Program-made: the position numbers and the translations under genes | Notes under the pieces: generated by a model | What the model was told of the DNA's origin: nothing | The model's database searches: none | The model's input: only the letters and a program-made list of their open reading frames with translations | In this document: one piece after another, positions 11,312 to 42,451 of the stretch | Layout of the letters: the number at the start of each line of letters is the position of its first letter | Numbering within the stretch: the first letter of the stretch is position 1 | NCBI GenBank assembly: GCA_945787105.1 | Contig: CALZGZ010000079.1 | Span: 1 to 47,928 of the forward strand | Origin: an uncultured Gammaproteobacteria bacterium | GTDB taxonomy: Bacteria; Pseudomonadota; Gammaproteobacteria; Arenicellales; JAANXG01 | DNA length: 47,928 nucleotides | Reading direction: 5' to 3'

Positions 11312-11680
11312 TTACTCCTCAAATGCCTTGATCGATGCCAATTGATAGCGTTCGCTAATCAACATCACCTGGCCATCTGTTTCCGTGACTGCCAAAGCTA
11401 TCAATCCCGTATCGTTGCACGGACCAGCCCGGCATGCTCCGGAAACCGGGTCATACAACGCGCCATGTGTTGCGCAAATAATATACCGTTTCTCGGTATC
11501 GAAGAACGATCCTGCTGTATAGTCCAGCTGCAACCCCATATGGCTGCAGCGGTTTATATAGGCGCGCACTCGTCCAGCATATCTTATAGCAAACGCCGGC
11601 ATGGTATTTTCACCGTCGCGGACCTTAAACCGTACCCCTCGTCCTCCCTCTACCAGCATAGCACTTCGACAAATTGTCAT
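11312..11680 (-). CDS. Small Rieske [2Fe-2S] protein
   Basis: 122 residues from ATG 11680, chosen because it forms a 4-base ATGA overlap with the upstream phosphatase stop; longer starts at 11701 and 11731 are possible. The cluster ligands are Cys45-x-His47 (CSHMG) and Cys69-x2-His72 (CATHGALYDP). It resembles the stand-alone ferredoxin-like Rieske proteins related to NirD and biphenyl dioxygenase ferredoxins. Its place between a HAD phosphatase and sppA downstream of rluC recurs in several gammaproteobacteria. Its electron-transfer partner is unknown. Confidence 0.88.
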   Translation of the reverse strand: MTICRSAMLVEGGRGVRFKVRDGENTMPAFAIRYAGRVRAYINRCSHMGLQLDYTAGSFFDTEKRYIICATHGALYDPVSGACRAGPCNDTGLIALAVTETDGQVMLISERYQLASIKAFEE

Positions 11681-12333
11681 GCTGCTTGATTGAGGATCCA
11701 TGCGTAAACCTCTGGAAACGAATTCACACAAGCCAATGGATCATGTGCATGCAACTGGGCGACATCGTGCATGCCGTAGGTGACCGCAAGCGCATATACT
11801 CCGGCTTCGTTGGCCATTTGCAGGTCGAATACGGTATCACCCACCATGACTGCCTCGCTGGCCTCGACGCCGGTCTGATCCAAGATATCCAATAACATTT
11901 TTGGATGTGGTTTCGATGGCGCCTCATCGGCGCACCGCGTGGCGGCAAACAGCTGCGAGGTGGCGGTATCCGTGAGCGCCTGATCCAGGCCCCGGCGCCC
12001 CTTTCCGGTGGCCACGGCGAGGAGGTATCCGCGACTGCATAGTTCATGAAGGTATTTCAATACCCCTGGGAACAGCTGCATGACGGTGCGATCTTTGGTC
12101 AGGAAATGTGACCGGTAGCGCTCTACCAACTCACGATGCTGTTCCAAACTCGCGTCTGGAAATAGGGTATTGAAAGCATCATTGAGACTCAAACCGATGA
12201 TTTGGCGCGCCGCATCGCGGTCCAGCGACGGTAGCCCCACATCCCCTACCGCCGCCAGTAAGCAATTTATGATCTTGGCAGCAGAGTCCATCAGCGTCCC
12301 ATCCCAATCGAAGATGATAAGCTTAACCCGCAT
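11677..12333 (-). CDS. HAD-superfamily phosphatase (phosphoglycolate phosphatase-like)
   Basis: 218 residues, HAD subfamily IA. Motif I is IIFDWDGTLMDS with nucleophile Asp9 and Asp11. Motif II is the VATGK region, motif III is KPHPKML, and motif IV is MVGDTVFDLQMA. The family hydrolyses small phosphate esters; the substrate cannot be read from the sequence. The start ATGCGGGTTAAG is well conserved in position. Today it is separated from rluC by a 368-bp element. Without that element the rluC frame would overlap this start by 11 bases, implying ancestral translational coupling. Confidence 0.88.
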   Translation of the reverse strand: MRVKLIIFDWDGTLMDSAAKIINCLLAAVGDVGLPSLDRDAARQIIGLSLNDAFNTLFPDASLEQHRELVERYRSHFLTKDRTVMQLFPGVLKYLHELCSRGYLLAVATGKGRRGLDQALTDTATSQLFAATRCADEAPSKPHPKMLLDILDQTGVEASEAVMVGDTVFDLQMANEAGVYALAVTYGMHDVAQLHAHDPLACVNSFPEVYAWILNQAA

Positions 12334-12343
12334 CGGTCATTAG

Positions 12344-12711
12344 CCTTTATATTGCACCATTAATCGCGGATGATAGCGTCCGGACTTGTCCTGCGCGTAG
12401 TTGCAGGATCGGGCGGCTGGTTCCCTTGCTGTTCCCCTGCTGTTCCCCTGCTGTGCGGGGACAAGGCGGGGACGAGCCCCCTGCTATGCGGGGACAAGCC
12501 CCACGCTGGAGCGAAATGCATAGCTGTAGCTATGGATTGAGGGAAGCGCAAGCACCGGCATTCGCGACCGAGCCCGCGCCGGGATAGTCCCGCCCCTATT
12601 GTTACCAGGCGACCTGGCGCATCGAATGCTGCTTTTTCCTGGAGGAGACATTGCGGGCATCCCGATGTATAGCCACTCATAGGGGCGGAACACCTTGGTG
12701 CGATATACGGG
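12344..12711. mobile_element. MITE-like repeat element, copy 2 (rluC/HAD junction)
   Basis: A full-length 368-bp copy with clear ends. The left end is CCTTTATATTGCACC; the right end is CTTGGTGCGATATACGGG. It is flanked by an exact 4-bp duplication, TTAG, at 12340-12343 and 12712-12715. Inside are three GCTGTTCCCCT-type tandem units (about 12420-12455), GGGGACAAGCC repeats, the palindrome ATGCATAGCTGTAGCTATGG (12516-12535), and a CCGGGATAGTCCCG inverted repeat. It has no protein-coding capacity of its own. Its right end is translated as the last codons of rluC. Confidence 0.88.
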
Positions 12712-13675
12712 TTAGCTGATGCAGGATTGTTTTGAGCTCGTGCGGCAATGGGCACTTGAGCGTGATGTTTCGCCCGGTCACCGGATGTCTAAATTCCAGA
12801 CGTGACGCATGCAGAAACAGGCGATTCAAACCGCGTTCGCGCATCAGCGTGTTAAACCCTTTGTCACCGTATTTGCTGTCTCCGCCAATTGGATGTCCGA
12901 GATAGGCGGCGTGTACTCGCGCTTGATGGGTGCGGCCGGTAATCAGATCAACGTCGACCAGGGTGGCGGTCTCGAACAACACTCTTGGCCGAAAATAACT
13001 CACGGCGCGCTGGCCATCTGACGATACCTGCACCAGCCGTTCGCCGGAGCGCAACATATTCTTTTTCAAGGCCACGTTGACGTCACGCGCCCCCCCTTGC
13101 CAACGTCCTTTTACCAGCGCCAGATAGGATTTTTTAATCCGACGCCCGGTACCGGTATGCTGCCGCAACAATTCCTGGAGCGCAATCAGGGCGTTGCGGC
13201 TCTTAGCGATCAACAGACATCCCGACGTATCGCGATCCAGGCGATGGACCAGTTCTAAATACTCCTGTTCCGGCCGTGCCGCGCGCAACCAATCAATAAG
13301 TCCAGCGGGGATCGTAGTGCCGGCGTGGACTGCGATGCCGGCTGGTTTATCAATCATGAATAGATGATCATCCTCGAACAATATACGCTGCGTCACCTTA
13401 CGCTGACCGACTGTGATCAAGGGTGACGGCCGCATGGCGACACGAATCGGAGGTATCCGAACGTGATCGCCGAGTTGGAGCCGGCTTTTTGGTTTCGCCC
13501 GAGAGCGGTTCACCCGCACCTGACCAGTGCGCACAATACGATAAATGTGGCTACGCGGTACGCCCTTCAACTGGGCGATCAGGAAATTGTCCAGCCGCTG
13601 CCCACTATGGTGCTCGGATACTTCAACGATGCGGCTGCGGTATTCGTGGGGATCGACCATCGGCGCGCGGATCAT
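12677..13675 (-). CDS. rluC: 23S rRNA pseudouridine synthase RluC
   Basis: About 332 residues from ATG 13675 (alternatives: 13660 or a GTG at 13741). The N-terminal S4 RNA-binding domain spans about residues 24-80 (GQRLDNFLIAQLKGVPRSHI). The catalytic motif HRLDRDTSG carries Asp147, and RTHQARVHAAYLGHPIGGDSKYG closes the RluA-type fold. It converts U955/U2504/U2580-type sites in 23S rRNA. The final residues TRISHQGVPPL are encoded by the inserted element at 12344-12711, which provides a new TGA. Before insertion the frame would have ended MTDAG, overlapping the next gene. The new tail is outside the conserved fold, so activity is probably retained. Confidence 0.93.
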   Translation of the reverse strand: MIRAPMVDPHEYRSRIVEVSEHHSGQRLDNFLIAQLKGVPRSHIYRIVRTGQVRVNRSRAKPKSRLQLGDHVRIPPIRVAMRPSPLITVGQRKVTQRILFEDDHLFMIDKPAGIAVHAGTTIPAGLIDWLRAARPEQEYLELVHRLDRDTSGCLLIAKSRNALIALQELLRQHTGTGRRIKKSYLALVKGRWQGGARDVNVALKKNMLRSGERLVQVSSDGQRAVSYFRPRVLFETATLVDVDLITGRTHQARVHAAYLGHPIGGDSKYGDKGFNTLMRERGLNRLFLHASRLEFRHPVTGRNITLKCPLPHELKTILHQLTRISHQGVPPL

Positions 13676-13741
13676 ATCAGATTGAAGGGGTATAAAGACG
13701 CTGCTATAGTCGAGGGGATCGCTAATGTGGACGATCGGCAC

Positions 13742-14136: not shown

Positions 14137-16278
14137 ATGAAGAGAATGTTGTTTAACGCAACTCATCAGGAGGAGTTGCGAGTGGCCCTCGTTGATGGCC
14201 AAAAACTCCTCGATCTGGATATCGAATCTGCTACCCGCTACGAGAAGAAAGGAAATATCTACAAGGGCCGCGTCACACGCGTAGAGCCTAGCCTGGAAGC
14301 GGCATTCGTCGACTACGGCTCCGAGCGCCAGGGGTTTCTCCCGTTAAAGGAGATCTCCCGCGCCTATTTCACCGATTATTCGCCGAAAACACCGATGGCA
14401 CAGGTACGCATTCAGGATGTCATCAAGGAAGAACAGGAATTGCTCGTACAGGTAGAGAAAGACGAACGGGGTAACAAGGGTGCCGCGCTGACAACGTTTA
14501 TCAGTCTCGCCGGCCGCTACCTGGTGTTGATGCCCAATAATCCCAAAGGCGGTGGTATCTCGCGGCGCATAGAGGGTGAACACCGGTCCGATTTGCGGGA
14601 CATAATTTCGGCGTTGAACGTGCCCAACGAACACGCCTTGATTGCCCGTACCGCCGGGATTGGTAAATCTCAGGACGAATTACAGTGGGATCTCGATTAT
14701 CTGCTGCAGCTATGGGAAGCGATTAGCCAAGCCTCCGAGACCCGATCCGCGCCGTTTCTAGTGTTTCAGGAAACAAATCTCGTGGTGCGTGCGATTCGCG
14801 ACTACCTGCGCAGCGATATCTCAGAAATCATCATAGATGATAAGGAAATCCATGAGCGTGCCTCCAAGTTCATGCAGCAAGTCATGCCGCAAAACCTGGT
14901 CAAGCTGAAATACTACAGCGACACAGTACCTCTTTTTTCAAGATTTCAGATTGAACACCAGATCGAATCAGCCTTTGCCCGTCAAGTTAGCTTGGCGTCC
15001 GGGGGGGCGTTGGTCATTGATCACACCGAAGCCGTGGTAACCATTGATGTCAATTCCGCCCGCGCCACCAAGGGTGCCGATATCGAGGAAACGGCGCTGC
15101 AGACCAATCTAGAGGCGGCAGATGAAGTCGCCCGCCAACTGCGTATCCGCGACCTAGGTGGTTTAATTGTTATCGATTTTATCGACATGACGTCGAATCG
15201 AAACCAACGCACGGTGGAAAACCGGCTGCAAGAGGCCCTCAAGGCCGACCGCGCACGGGTCCAATTGGGCCGCATTTCCCGCTTCGGGCTGCTGGAAATG
15301 TCGCGTCAACGTCTACGCGCGTCTTTGGGCGAATCCAATTATCAGGCATGCCCCCGATGTGTCGGAACGGGCTACGTGCGCAGCATTTCTTCGTCTGCGT
15401 TGAGCATTCTGCGAATTCTCGAAGAGGAGGCGCTCAAAGAGAACACCGAAGCGATTCATGCGCATTTACCAAGGGAGACCGCCACCTTTCTGTTAAACGA
15501 GAAGCGGCACGAGCTCAATATGATCGAAAACCGGCTGGGCACGCAGATCTTTGTCATCCCCACCGACGAACTGGAGACACCGCATTTTCGTATCAGGCGC
15601 CTGCGCAGCGAAGACCTGGCGACGATGCCGATTCGGCCCAGCTATGCGATACAGCTGGAACTCGATGAGACCGATATTTCGTCCACCCAGGCCCGCCAGC
15701 ACACCACACAGGTGGCCGCAGTCGGCATGGATCAGATGCAAGTCGCGGCGCGCCCTGTGATTCCATCAAAACCGGAATTTCGGCGCCTTTTACGCCGCTG
15801 GTGGGACAAATTGTTCGCTACCGCAAAAGCGCCCCCGGTTGCTGCCAGCGACGAAATCCAGCAAGACAGACAACAACGACCACCGGCCCGCGGTGCCCAG
15901 GGACAACGTGGGCGTCCAAGGGGCGGTGGACGCGGCCCACAGCGTGGTGACGGTCGCTCGCGCACACGATCTGGACCGGCAAAAAGCGGCGAACAAAAAG
16001 CGGCGGGTAATGGTCGCGGGCGTCGGCCCCGCGGCGGTCGTTCGCGGCGCTCCGGTCAACGCCGCGAAGCACCCGACGGCGGGAGTGTTGCCAAAGATCG
16101 CCAGGCTAGCCCGCAACAGCGACAGGCTAAACCGACGTCGACACCGGCTGATGACACGTCGATTGTCAAACCAGAGCCACGCAACGTCAGCGATATCAAG
16201 CCAAAATCAACGCCGTCGGAGACCCCGGTGGATGTCAATTTGGACGTCAAACAGGCTGGAGACGGCACTAGGGATTAA
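14137..16278 (+). CDS. rne: Ribonuclease E (short form)
   Basis: 713 residues. The start [13 protein letters not shown] at 14137 has GAAGGAA upstream. The S1 domain lies at about 37-120. The catalytic aspartates are Asp304 (TIDVNS) and Asp347 (IVIDFIDM), and the zinc-link cysteines are Cys405 and Cys408 (CPRCVGTG), matching E. coli 303/346 and 404/407. The C-terminal part is a short, disordered Arg/Gly-rich RNA-binding tail (about 590-660). It lacks the roughly 350 extra residues of the E. coli degradosome scaffold. It initiates mRNA decay and rRNA/tRNA processing. The stop TAA (16276-16278) is part of the TTAA abutting the inserted element downstream. Confidence 0.96.
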
Positions 16279-16609
16279 CCCGCATTTCTCACCCGGCGCC
16301 GCCCCTGTCTGCACGTAAAGAGACCCGGGGCATCGGTTACAGGAAATGGCGACATTCGACGCTCCAGTTTGCTTGCCGAGAATAGCGACCGGGCAATCCC
16401 GGTCCGGACTGGTGCCCGCGCACCTGGGCTTGACCGTCCCGCCAAAGAAACTGGGGTCGGCGTGAACACCCCGGTCCCATTTTCTTTGGCTCCAGGCGCG
16501 GCGCGTGTCCCTGCCTTGGCCCCGCACAGCAGGGGAACAGCAGGGGGCCCAGCTGCACGCGTTCTGCGTCAGCATCCGGGATCTTGGTGACATATGCGGT
16601 CCGGGCTGC
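16279..16609. mobile_element. MITE-like repeat element, copy 3 (rne/rlmD convergent junction)
   Basis: The left end CCCGCATTTCTCACCCGG starts directly after TTAA, which contains the rne stop. The right end CATCCGGGATCTTGGTGACATATGCGG (16573-16599, two overlapping parts) is followed by ten extra bases and then CTAA at 16610-16613, which contains the rlmD stop on the other strand. TTAA and CTAA differ by one base. The interior is larger and different from other copies. It includes a long inverted repeat at 16441-16490 and GGGGAACAGCAGGGGGC units that also occur in copy 2. Confidence 0.75.
16441..16490. repeat. Long imperfect inverted repeat inside element copy 3
   Basis: GCCAAAGAAACTGGGGTCGG (16441-16460) pairs with the complementary stretch ending TTTCTTTGGC (16469-16490), with a loop of eight bases. 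It would form a strong hairpin in either transcript of the convergent rne/rlmD pair. It may act as a bidirectional transcription or RNA-decay barrier. Confidence 0.6.
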
Positions 16610-26055: not shown

Positions 26056-26531
26056 TTTTCCGTGGAATTACCCTCGGTCGATGGTGATGGTTGTTCCGTG
26101 GAATCACCCTCGGTCGATGGCGACGGTTGTGCCGCGGAACTACCCTGGGTCGGTGGTAGTGGTGGTATGTACCGTGCCAAGTAACCGAACATCCGTGCCG
26201 CGATACGCTCATGGTCGGTGTCGCTAAACACATCGACATCAATACGTAATAAATCAGGGTCAGTGGTAGTACTGATCTTCTGGCGCAGATACCAGGTACG
26301 TCCCCCCATAGACATTTGCTGATCGGATTCAGTGGCAGCCGGCCAGACTCGAGACAACCGAAGTTCCGCCAGGTGATTACTAGCTACCCACGACCCTATG
26401 AGTCGCTCTTCACTGATCTGCAACACCACTGCCGTGCTGCCTATTACCTTGCTGAGGGCACCGAGTCCTACCGAGACGATCAACAGTGCGGCAAGTATCT
26501 CCAATAACGTGAAGCCTGCGCTAGCCCGCAT
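26052..26531 (-). CDS. gspI: Type II secretion system minor pseudopilin I, start codon supplied by an element
   Basis: 159 residues. The prepilin leader MRASAG precedes FTLLEILAALLIVSVGLGALS, with Glu at +5. The ATG at 26529-26531 and the first two codons belong to the end of the inserted element (26525-27034) and its CTAG flank. Deleting the element joins the end of gspH to this gene and gives MKQGSAGFTLLEI, a normal GspI leader, overlapping gspH by 14 bases. The C-terminus carries a Pro/Ser/Thr/Glu-rich tail of about 37 residues from three 36-bp tandem repeats (26058-26165), longer than a typical GspI. Confidence 0.9.
   Translation of the reverse strand: MRASAGFTLLEILAALLIVSVGLGALSKVIGSTAVVLQISEERLIGSWVASNHLAELRLSRVWPAATESDQQMSMGGRTWYLRQKISTTTDPDLLRIDVDVFSDTDHERIAARMFGYLARYIPPLPPTQGSSAAQPSPSTEGDSTEQPSPSTEGNSTEK
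26058..26165 (-). repeat. Three tandem 36-bp repeats in the 3' end of gspI
   Basis: Units at 26058-26093, 26094-26129 and 26130-26165. The first two differ at few positions and the third is more diverged. Translated on the minus strand they give a repeated PSPSTEGDSTEQ-type tail. The 36-bp period keeps the frame, so the copy number can vary without disrupting the gene. Confidence 0.8.
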
Positions 26532-27034
26532 AATGCACCAAGGATCCTGGATGATGACGAAGCGATCGGGCGGCTGGGCGCCGCGCTGGGACGAAATGCA
26601 TAGCCGTAGCTATGGATTGAGTGAAGTGTAAGTCTAGCCCGCATTGCTCACCAGGATCCCGGATACTGGCGCAGGACTCGCGCCACTGAGCGCCGCGCCT
26701 GGAGCGAGATCCATAGCGAGCTATGGGTCGAGTGAAGGCCAAGTGCAGAGGGGCGAGAACCAGCCAGGACCGGGATAGGCGTGACTGCCGTAACACCTGC
26801 AGTCCATACCTGTGGCTCAATGCCTTATATGCATCCGCACACTCGGAGTTTGGCGCCGCCTGGTGAGCAATGCGGGCTTGCCGTTCGGGACCGAGCCAGC
26901 GCCGGGATAGTCCCGCCCCTGTTCTTGTCAAACAATCTGACGCATCGATGTGGCCGTTTCGTGGATTAGACACCACGGCCATGCTCGGTGTATAGCGAAG
27001 AACACGGGCGGCGCGCCTTGCGGCAATATGCGGG
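26525..27034. mobile_element. MITE-like repeat element, copy 5 (outer; gspH/gspI junction)
   Basis: Its ends are CCCGCATAATGCACCAAGGA on the left and CCTTGCGGCAATATGCGGG on the right. The flanks are CTAG (26521-26524) and CTAC (27035-27038), one base apart. It is interrupted by copy 6. With that removed it is about 270 bp and lines up with copy 2 (palindrome ATGCATAGCCGTAGCTATGG at 26596-26615; GCGCCGGGATAGTCCCGCCC near 26893). The CTAC flank contains the gspH stop on the minus strand and the other end contains the gspI start, so it lies between the two without breaking either frame. Confidence 0.88.
26638..26876. mobile_element. MITE-like repeat element, copy 6 (nested in copy 5)
   Basis: 239 bp. 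The left end is CCCGCATTGCTCACCAGGAT and the right end is GCCTGGTGAGCAATGCGGG, a nearly perfect 18-base inverted pair. It is flanked by CTAG (26634-26637) and CTTG (26877-26880). The body closely matches copy 1 and has the palindrome CCATAGCGAGCTATGG (26711-26726). The break point in copy 5 is seen by comparison with copy 2, where the two flanks are joined. This nesting shows that insertions happened more than once. Confidence 0.88.
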
Positions 27035-27598
27035 CTACCCTGCTTCATGCGGTTTACGCTCCACTTCAACGTTCTGATTGGCGTTGAGATTTACAACGTA
27101 TTCAAAATCTCTGCCGATAACTGTCAAGAAAAATGGTTGGATTTCACCTAGCGAATCGACGACCACCAAAGTCTTGTCTTTTTGGTCCGGTCCGGCTGTG
27201 AACTGGATATTCAAGTAATCTGGTATAACGCGTGGGCGCAACGAGTCGTCTTTCTCTACCGGTAACCACTTTTTGTCAAATATGAGAAACTTATAGCGGC
27301 CCTCCGGTTCGTCAATTTCAATTCCATGCAGCCGACCGGTCAGTATGCTTTCATCACGGAGATGTTCAACTAAAGCCGCAAAACGACGCGCTTCCAGCTC
27401 CGCCACCTGATCAATATCACGTTCGAGATTTAACGCAATCACCGCAATACTAATCCCAATCAACAGCACAACCACCATGATCTCGAGCAACGTAAATCCA
27501 CGTTGTCTAATACCTTGGCATGAATACTGCGTGCTTGGGCTGATCACAGCGTACAAAGTATGTGTTGATCGCTCGTTTACACGCCTGATTACATTCAA
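27035..27598 (-). CDS. gspH: Type II secretion system minor pseudopilin H
   Basis: 187 residues. The prepilin motif is RGFTLLEIMVVVLLIGISIAVIALN with Glu at +5, followed by the GspH beta domain. The first in-frame ATG gives a leader of about 33 residues before the cleavage Gly, much longer than the usual 5-10. In-frame GTG or TTG codons nearer the motif (leader about 17) are possible true starts. The stop TAG (27035-27037) forms part of the flank of element copy 5. About 100 bp separate it from gspG, more than other gaps in this operon. Confidence 0.9.
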   Translation of the reverse strand: MNVIRRVNERSTHTLYAVISPSTQYSCQGIRQRGFTLLEIMVVVLLIGISIAVIALNLERDIDQVAELEARRFAALVEHLRDESILTGRLHGIEIDEPEGRYKFLIFDKKWLPVEKDDSLRPRVIPDYLNIQFTAGPDQKDKTLVVVDSLGEIQPFFLTVIGRDFEYVVNLNANQNVEVERKPHEAG

Positions 27599-37808: not shown

Positions 37809-38213
37809 ATGAAACTACACCTCATCCGCAGCGACGACTTATACCTCGTGCAATCAGTCACCGCGGAACGTATCGTCATCAACAATCAAGTCTACACCGC
37901 GAGCATGATCGTCACGCCACAAACGATCATTACCGACTGGCAACCGAGGCGGTTTGAGGACTTGTCCGCGGACGATTTCTTACCGCTGTTAGATCTAGAG
38001 CCGGAAGTAGCGCTACTTGGCACCGGCAACCGGTTACAGTTTCCGGCACCGCACGTCACCACGCCGCTTATACGGCACGCAATGGGACTCGAGGTCATGG
38101 ATACCCCCGCCGCATGCCGCACGTTCAATATTTTAGCTAGCGAAGGAAGAAAAGTCGCGGCCGCATTGGTGTTCGAGGCCGTTAATGACGCTTACCCGCG
38201 TGGCGAACACTAG
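37809..38213 (+). CDS. Mth938 / NDUFAF3-like protein (DUF498)
   Basis: 134 residues from ATG 37809 (MKLHLIRSDD); an upstream in-frame ATG at 37746 lacks conservation. The signatures are WQPRRFEDLSADDFLPLL, LLGTGNRLQFP and the C-terminal RTFNILASEGRKVAAALVFE, all typical of the family that includes human complex-I assembly factor NDUFAF3. The bacterial role is not established. The stop TAG is part of a CTAG flanking element copy 7. Before insertion this stop and that of rpoS would have been the same palindromic CTAG. Confidence 0.88.
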   Translation: MKLHLIRSDDLYLVQSVTAERIVINNQVYTASMIVTPQTIITDWQPRRFEDLSADDFLPLLDLEPEVALLGTGNRLQFPAPHVTTPLIRHAMGLEVMDTPAACRTFNILASEGRKVAAALVFEAVNDAYPRGEH

Positions 38214-38376
38214 CCTGGATACTGCACCAGGCTCACGGACGATGATGCAAAGATTTGCTGTCACCGCTTGAGAGCTTGAAAAAGCATCAGTTGATCTTGG
38301 GAAATCGGAGATCAGCCGCGTCGTATTGCGGTCGATGAGAATCAGGTGCGCGGCGCGACTTGGCGCAATGTCCACG
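38214..38376. mobile_element. MITE-like repeat element, copy 7 (Mth938-like/rpoS convergent junction)
   Basis: 163 bp. The left end is CCTGGATACTGCACCAGG; the right end is CTTGGCGCAATGTCCACG. It is flanked by exact CTAG duplications at 38210-38213 and 38377-38380, each serving as a stop codon, for the plus-strand gene and for rpoS respectively. It is a short and diverged copy lacking the internal palindrome. It is now the only spacer between two convergent genes and the 3' untranslated region of both. Confidence 0.88.
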
Positions 38377-39339
38377 CTAGCACAAGCTGTCGAGAGTAAA
38401 GCCCCGCGTTTCCAACAATGTTCGAAGTTTCGCCAACGCTTCAACTTGAATCTGACGAACACGTTCGCGGGTAACACCGACATCCAAGCCCACCTTCTCT
38501 AGGGTGGCTACGTCTCTTCCGCGTAAGCCGAAGCGGCGCTCCACGACTTCTCTTTGCTTGTCATTTAGTGATCTAAGCCACTCATCAATATGCTGCAGTA
38601 CCTTTTCGTTCTGTAGTACTTCGGCGGGATCTGACGATTTTTCATCGGGTATTGCATCCAGCAACGTGCGATCTGGGTCCGACTCCAGCGGTGCATCCAT
38701 CGATGCGGTCTTGTCGTCCAGATAGAGCATACGCTTGACGTTCTGCACCGGTACGTCCAGCATCTCCGCAATCTCTTCAGCGTTGGGCTCATGATCCAGT
38801 TGTTGCGCTAATTGCTTGGCCGCCCGCTGATAGACGTTGATCTCTTTGAGAATATGAACCGGCAATCGAATGGTACGAGTCTGGTTCATGATCGCGCGTT
38901 CTATAGTCTGCCGAATCCACCAAGTGGCATAGGTGGAGAAACGAAAACCACGTTCCGGATCAAATTTTTCCACCGCTCTAATGAGCCCCAGGTTTCCCTC
39001 CTCGATTAGATCGAGAAACGTCAGTCCCCGGTTAATGTATCTGCGCGCGATCTTCACCACTAAACGAAGGTTGCTCTCAATCATGCGTTTGCGCGCCGCC
39101 TCATCGCCTTTTTGGCACAATCGTCCAAAATAGACTTCTTCCTTGGCAGTCAACAAAGCGGAATAACCTATTTCACGCAGATATATTTGCGTCGCATCTG
39201 CGTAAGAGGACGAGGACCGCCGCCCACCCACGGTGGCCTTCTTAACGGGTTTTGCCATTTTCGCCGCCGCGCGCAACGGCGCATCCGCCGCGGTAGCTTT
39301 GTCAGCCTTGCGGTCCAGTGGTTGTCTAGATCTAGGCAT
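38377..39339 (-). CDS. rpoS: RNA polymerase sigma factor RpoS
   Basis: 320 residues from ATG 39339, supported by GGGGG six bases upstream and the conserved MPRSRQP-type start; a longer frame from 39402 is less likely. Region 1.2 is [21 protein letters not shown]. Region 2 is [37 protein letters not shown]. Region 3 and region 4 ([21 protein letters not shown]) follow. It is the stationary-phase and stress sigma factor. Its stop TAG lies in the CTAG flank of element copy 7, so the mRNA 3' end is now element-derived. Its main promoter is probably inside nlpD, as in relatives. Confidence 0.97.
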
Positions 39340-42086: not shown

Positions 42087-42176
42087 TGTCCCCTTGACCT
42101 AAACCGAATAGCGCACCAAGGCGGCGAAAAAAAGAGTTAACATTTTGTTTGGCATAAGTAATTCGATCAATGCTGG

Positions 42177-42335
42177 GTGTAACACTTTATGCCCGATTGG
42201 GTTCTATCCCGGCGTCGGCTCGGTCTCGAACGCCTTGACTTGCGTTTCAGCGCGGCTTCCAGGCGCCCGACCCTACGCATATTCGCAGGGCAAATCCCGT
42301 CGCCCTCATCCGGGATCCTTGGTGCAATATACAAG
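42177..42335. mobile_element. MITE-like repeat element, copy 8 (between tRNA-Pro and surE)
   Basis: 159 bp, opposite in orientation to most copies. The right end GGATCCTTGGTGCAATATAC is clear; the left end (GTGTAACACTTTATGCCCG) is degenerate. CTGG occurs on both sides (42173-42176, 42336-42339), one base away from CTAG. The interior shares CCGGGATAGAACCC and GGCGTCGGCTCGGTCTCG-type blocks with copy 2 on the other strand. It lies about 90 bp upstream of surE. Confidence 0.65.

Positions 42336-42372: not shown

Positions 42373-42451
<79 letters not shown>

Follow-up and report, generated by a model that had tools for sequence, protein, structure and literature searches.

The stretch of DNA analysed here (the window, 47,928 nucleotides) is contig C79 of a 388-contig, 4.8-Mb assembly, whose genome we refer to as G000. 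On the minus strand of the window, an rluC-like gene (12677-13741; 354 amino acids from the first start codon, with S4 and PseudoU_synth_2 matches) ends in TRISHQGVPPL and is followed by an intact gene for a HAD-family hydrolase of 218 amino acids (11677-12333; HAD_2, matched over the full profile). The name rluC is that of the first-pass annotation; the family match cannot separate RluC from its paralogues. Between the two genes lies a MITE-like element of 368 bp (12344-12711, no strand assigned; 60% G+C versus 54% for the window) with no recognisable transposase ORF. The first-pass annotation described its flanks as exact TTAG repeats, and we find these at 12340-12343 on the HAD side and, as an exact match, at 12712-12715 on the rluC side; the empty site of G005, the nearest relative, has a single CTAG here. 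The element's 16-bp terminal inverted repeats are CCTTTATATTGCACCA on the HAD side (12344-12359, plus strand, first bases CCTTT) and CCCGTATATCGCACCA on the rluC side (12696-12711, minus strand, read as part of the new RluC tail), and they match each other imperfectly, at 13/16 positions. Inside the element is a tandem repeat of 11 bp in 3.2 copies (12420-12454, plus strand). The short length and missing transposase, the terminal repeats, the target-site duplication with a known empty site and the dispersal in many copies are those of a MITE.

None of the three ORFs in or across the element had a Pfam match (E 0.01), and simple scans of it found no promoter-like site and no terminator-like site on the operon strand; the plus strand, opposite to that of the operon, has one terminator-like site, with 0.5 expected. 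RNA folding of 12320-12740 (minus strand) gave z = -2.1, with 3 of 100 shuffles equally stable, and Rfam at gathering scores returned tRNA only for the whole window.

With the element in place, rluC has 354 codons, ends LHQLTRISHQGVPPL and stops at 12679-12677, its last 35 nt, including the TGA stop, being element sequence (12677-12711, minus strand); the HAD start lies 344 nt past the new stop. When the flanks are joined at one TTAG, rluC has 348 codons, ends LHQLMTDAG, and its TAA overlaps the HAD ATG by 11 nt (ATGCGGGTTAA). The orphaned native end (ATG ACC GAT GCG GGT TAA, MTDAG) is still present on the HAD side (12323-12340, minus strand), overlapping the HAD start by 11 nt. Joined flanks and ORF reading thus bear out both gene ends given in the first-pass annotation, the empty-site tail MTDAG with its TAA overlapping the HAD ATG by 11 bases and the continuation of rluC into the end repeat as TRISHQGVPPL, with the stop at 12677.

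The junction in congeners

Examination of the rluC-HAD junction in relatives had been proposed in the first-pass annotation. Among five congeners, three (G005, G001 and G002) are empty with the 11-nt overlap, one has a native-type tail without HAD at the locus, and one carries the remnant of a different copy. In G005, whose RluC is 94% identical, the empty site reads GAGCTAGAGAGCGATGCGGGTTAA and RluC ends LHELESDAG, its gene overlapping the HAD ATG by 11 nt; in G001 and G002 the tails are KSDAD and QADAD, respectively, each with the 11-nt overlap between rluC stop and HAD start. G004 has the native-type tail NGDAD, and HAD is absent from this locus; an apparent short fusion of both HAD gene ends was seen there between rluC and the next gene (L064 2400-2650). 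The records nearest to the window RluC are those of the uncultured Gammaproteobacteria MAGs FCS_M_Gamma_074 (94%) and ES_Gamma_065 (85%), whose junctions read as those of G005 and G003, respectively. We also considered that the empty site might be an old element scar, ATGCGGGTTAA being equal to the outward-read terminus plus YTAR, and rejected this; ATGCGGGTTAA is taken as native coding sequence because G001 and G002 carry ATGCAGATTAA and ATGCCGATTAA with an equal 11-nt overlap.

At the same spot G003 has CTAC-CCCGTACATCGCACTA and about 79 bp of another family subtype (80% identical to a G005 copy and 76% to the window copy at 42104), which aligns with the rluC copy of G000 only over about the terminal repeat. 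RluC of G003 ends PRTSH, read from the terminal repeat of this other copy (L063 2490-2600), and its HAD gene has lost the native ATG and reads MFGIRNSINTRLKLII from the remnant ATG or from farther upstream; the remnant probably supplies the HAD start, MFGIRNSINTRL. Two insertions are likelier than one, because RluC of G005 is closer to that of G000 than RluC of G003 is, and because the copies differ outside the terminal repeat. A family copy of the same subtype as the G003 remnant lies in the window at 42103-42335, with a tRNA gene at 42378-42451.

A survey of RluC tails tried 47 loci (30 + 17), of which 36 were readable, the window's own included; it was made without 30 distant matches (L108-L137) and without genomes whose match had no fetched locus. 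The TRISHQG tail occurs in none of the 36 besides the window's own, nor was it found in a second pass that read 9 of 10 same-family RluC loci. PRTSH of G003, with its own origin in a terminal repeat of the family, is the single tail that resembles it. Hence no relative lacking the element and carrying this tail was seen among the readable loci.

These observations make it very probable that a MITE with an IS5-like target inserted in the last codons of rluC within the G000 lineage, gave the gene a new tail and pushed HAD apart from it. The insertion, its target-site duplication, terminal repeats and family, the empty site of the relatives and the reading frames can be read from the DNA itself. 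In the event that we propose, a non-autonomous MITE with the target habit of IS5 would have entered a YTAR site in the last rluC codons. The 4-bp duplication would keep the rluC-side frame as CAG CTA A/CC CGT, so that translation would run through the terminal inverted repeat and stop 35 nt inside the element, an 11-residue end, TRISHQGVPPL, replacing the native 5 residues MTDAG. The native rluC end would be stranded beyond the element, so that HAD, once overlapping the rluC stop by 11 nt, would come to start 344 nt past it. Transposition presumably occurred in trans, by an IS5-like transposase, and the new tail is predicted to be translated. The first-pass annotation's claim that a mobile element donated coding sequence to rluC is thus supported by the anatomy of the terminal repeats and duplication, by the family and by the empty sites of congeners. 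Of its further claim, that a coupled pair was split, the separation of two genes that overlap in the empty-site congeners stands; the loss of rluC-HAD translational coupling is what we infer from the sequence. The element could be older or younger than the split from G005, which counts against this event as the best explanation. The closest other copy in the genome is 79% identical among the 40 of 298 candidates scored, so that a recent source copy was not seen; near-identical copies may be missing from the 388-contig MAG.

The changed residues of RluC are 344-354, the PseudoU_synth_2 match covers 126-279, and the stretch alignable with most relatives mostly ends at 343-346. Since the replaced residues lie past both, the effect on RluC is likely to be mild, perhaps near-neutral. 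Between G000 and G005, dN/dS is 0.13 for HAD and 0.18 for rluC, and HAD is still constrained. As the HAD-side end of the element begins with CCTTT, it reads AAAGG on the minus strand, 10 nt before the HAD ATG; this might be a new ribosome-binding site, in a single case, and a CCTTT start is found in 1 of the 168 termini of the paired elements described below.

Other explanations of the junction fare less well. It is unlikely that the element was ancestral to the subgroup of G000, G003 and G005 and cleanly lost from G005, which would then not be a primary empty site. G003 does have family sequence at the same place, with a terminal repeat likewise adjoining rluC, but its remnant belongs to another subtype and matches the rluC copy only over about that repeat; moreover, overlap length and DAx tail in G005 are still those of G001 and G002, and clean loss needs precise excision or recombination. 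Less probable again is an adaptive insertion, with selection favouring either the new tail or the uncoupling of HAD. The possible ribosome-binding site created by the rare CCTTT terminus would fit such selection, whereas the event is a single case, HAD has gone from this locus in G004, and HAD dN, measured against the outgroup G001, hardly differs between G000 (0.165) and G005 (0.158).

An assembly artefact, in which a repeat-mediated false join placed the element between rluC and HAD, we regard as highly improbable. A 388-contig assembly with a repeat family, several of whose listed copies lie near contig starts, is open to such joins; against this, the next best copy is only 79% identical (among the same 40 of 298 scored), the element is in mid-contig with matching duplications, and the genes on either side of it are neighbours at the relatives' empty site.

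The element family and its target

A 421-bp query (the element with short flanks) gave 58 matches in the own genome (40 of 298 candidates scored). The terminus pattern YTARCCCGCATATTGCACCA, at up to 3 mismatches, occurs there 202 + 189 = 391 times, as against 0 for the backwards control. A terminus match was present in 18 of the 20 relatives searched: more than 60 in nine genomes (G001 159, G003 214, G004 166, G005 326, G007 197, G008 238, G011 91, G012 179, G017 63), 1 to 14 in nine, and nil in two. Counts of 1 or 2 mean nothing, because the backwards control gives 0 to 2 per genome. In G000 several of the listed termini are at a distance of about 80-200 bases from the start of their contig (for example on C12, C178, C205 and C335). 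The assembly looks as if broken at near-identical copies, and the true copy number may be higher.

The family end string is CCCGCATATTGCACCA, with YTAR duplications, and the 16-bp terminal-repeat consensus comes from 168 termini that were selected for likeness to it. In loci L002-L030, chosen by similarity to the element without the YTAR pattern, 25 of the 49 termini whose repeat has at most 3 mismatches are flanked on the outside by exact YTAR, whereas YTAR begins at a fraction of 0.0051 of positions. In a larger set (up to 2 mismatches) the share is 139/207, which leans upwards because most stretches were picked with a pattern containing YTAR. YTAR is given as the duplication motif of IS5 in a passage of PMC10359306. 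The element resembles IS5-type insertion sequences in this target duplication (same passage, PMC10359306), and differs from them in having no transposase; no insertion sequence with these ends was present in the genomes searched. No locus bounded by this terminal repeat was found among 2 PF01609 loci of the own genome, 28 PF05598 loci in 8 genomes and 2 PF13586 loci in 10 genomes, some of these loci being cut by contig ends. Because no autonomous partner was found, the target motif is the one ground for kinship with IS5.

Three further arrangements were observed. In G007 (L149 328-2153) a DUF772-type transposase element with CTAG flanks adjoins a family copy, its own ends being different (CAGTCTGTCGGACTTAGC); in the own genome (L141) a family copy lies about 200 bp from a 58-aa transposase-match fragment; and at L187 a 2828-bp pair of ends encloses two called genes.

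Family ends at gene stops and starts

To place the rluC case among other copies, we surveyed the window and 80 own-genome stretches picked for listed family matches, in all 1,265,336 bases or 26% of the assembly, with a home-made gene caller that called 1085 genes and misses some, such as gspI. Paired elements were accepted with up to 4 mismatches between terminal repeats and with flanks within one base of YTAR; there were 84, with identical flanks in 30. Their 168 ends comprise 131 that are intergenic, 19 directly after the stop codon of a gene, 2 with the stop shifted by 1 or 3 nt, 5 with a gene running into the element and 11 called as gene starts inside it. The 19 stop-adjoining ends belong to 19 different elements and have the stop codon exactly in the duplicated flank, the base before TAR not being Y in five of them. 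Background YTAR sites outside elements number 281 at stops, 1963 intergenic and 4389 coding. The stop class shows a modest excess when elements are counted (19 to 65 versus 281 to 1963, that is 19/84 versus 281/2244; p = 0.012) and none when termini are counted (17 to 108, 17/125; p = 0.68). Tolerance at gene ends explains most of the stop pattern.

Five of the 84 paired elements give a C-terminal tail to the neighbouring gene. Besides RluC, the recipients are a metallophosphoesterase (SPHIAPRRQKK), an M28 peptidase (ARRSHQCSKKRD), a PALP-family enzyme (TRILQQGAPPLFSSDM) and one protein without a Pfam match. The PALP tail is the same reading as that of RluC, and this enzyme has other ends in G004, G001 and G002; of the five tails, those of RluC and PALP were the ones compared with relatives.

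In the window, a 163-bp element (38210-38380) lies between two convergent genes, one for a DUF498 protein and one for an rpoS-like sigma factor, and both stop codons are formed by its two CTAG copies. The idea that this pair had once shared one CTAG found no support, the convergent stop lying 99 nt (G004) or 25 nt (G002) beyond the rpoS stop. At 16275-16604 an rne-like gene ends in TTAA adjoining a family terminus (CCCGCATTTCTCACC), and the other end of that element, flanked by CCGG, is less well preserved.

In the outward direction the consensus terminus reads ATGCGGG and then YTAR. Of 177 termini with exact YTAR, 108 have the ATG; such an end can, in principle, provide a start codon together with the residues M-R-(A/V/I)-x. 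Among genes beginning near such ends, 12/33 are in frame with the terminus, as chance predicts (p = 0.42), a count that mixes repeats with and without the ATG. In-frame starts make up 12/21 beside a repeat with the ATG (p = 0.02) versus 2/12 beside a repeat without it. Because the gene caller favours long ORFs, the fairer count is that of genes with another start within 45 nt, 8/17 in frame (p = 0.17). Start-codon donation as a pattern of the family is thus a weak hint at most.

Two individual start codons that appear to be taken from an element end, in a 2-hydroxyacid dehydrogenase gene and in gspI, are backed by relatives. G004 and G001 have dehydrogenases that begin MTKVLITEF and MTKILITEF, respectively. 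The ATG of this start is directly followed by a 65-bp element in G000 and G005, where reading resumes in frame from the element end as MRAKILITEF. Later in-frame starts exist and would shorten the protein. The gspI gene of the window takes its start, MRASAGFTLLE, from the element end at 26525-26531. Native starts are MKKVSAGFT (G003), MKQASAGFT (G004) and MSRVNAGFT (G002); in these three genomes the two genes overlap natively, gspI beginning 14 nt ahead of the last base of the gspH stop. G005 reads MRANAGFT from an element end, and G001 has a related RANAGFT without an ATG. On these readings, gspH-gspI is a second overlapping pair that has been split. The gap between the two genes in the window (26521-27038) holds composite or nested elements, and gspH stops at the far flank.

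Element ends as possible gene boundaries

Since TAA or TAG lies within the palindromic YTAR duplication, a stop codon would be rebuilt on either side. With stops rebuilt in this way and starts supplied by the outward-read repeat, an element could split a pair such as rluC-HAD or gspH-gspI without destroying either gene. A broader reading would be that family ends work as ready-made gene boundaries, split coupled pairs intact and loosen operon architecture over time in the genus. We hold this only tentatively; the stop and start counts do not prove it, and passive tolerance at gene ends is likelier.

Small repeats that give genes stops and short tails are already published, and the rluC element represents a new family doing a known thing. 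As set out in parts of PMC5896051, QMITE1 and QMITE2 of Coxiella burnetii provide functional genes, including mutT, pntAA, recN and ruvB (its Table 2), with a stop and 0-16 C-terminal residues. They are like the present family in being small dispersed MITEs that give 3' gene ends a stop and a short tail, but their direct repeats, compared by description, are variable (2-3 nt or 7-11 nt) and not YTAR (same parts, PMC5896051). For Streptococcus pneumoniae, a section of PMC3049150 counts 58 CDSs that overlap BOX, 36 of them at the extreme 3' end with a BOX-encoded stop codon. Here, too, a repeat supplies the stop at a gene 3' end, although BOX, again compared by description, consists of modular boxA/B/C repeats and belongs to another phylum (PMC3049150, same section). 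The ends of MITEAba12 of Acinetobacter hold short start-codon-bearing frames that might become fused to neighbouring genes, and one real 3' fusion is described (PMC6382973, in excerpt). This is likewise a MITE whose end frames may join neighbouring genes; unlike ours, it has a 9-bp duplication and a known partner, ISAba12, and the fusion truncates the protein by 398 aa, which is no mere exchange of ends (PMC6382973, same excerpt). In-frame fusions by intragenic MITEs are called not unusual in a portion of a review that names Rickettsia palindromic elements (PMC10969869). The four terminal-repeat strings were not found in the open-licence literature searched, and a limited search of open-licence papers turned up no report in which a MITE end takes the place of the start codon in an overlapping pair.

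What the rluC element adds is a clean before-and-after view, given by the empty sites of congeners, of how a MITE rewrites the C-terminus of a conserved enzyme and separates an overlapping gene pair. Since related events of the same family are found at other loci, a single genus would allow comparative study of what lost coupling costs and of how variable protein ends arise.
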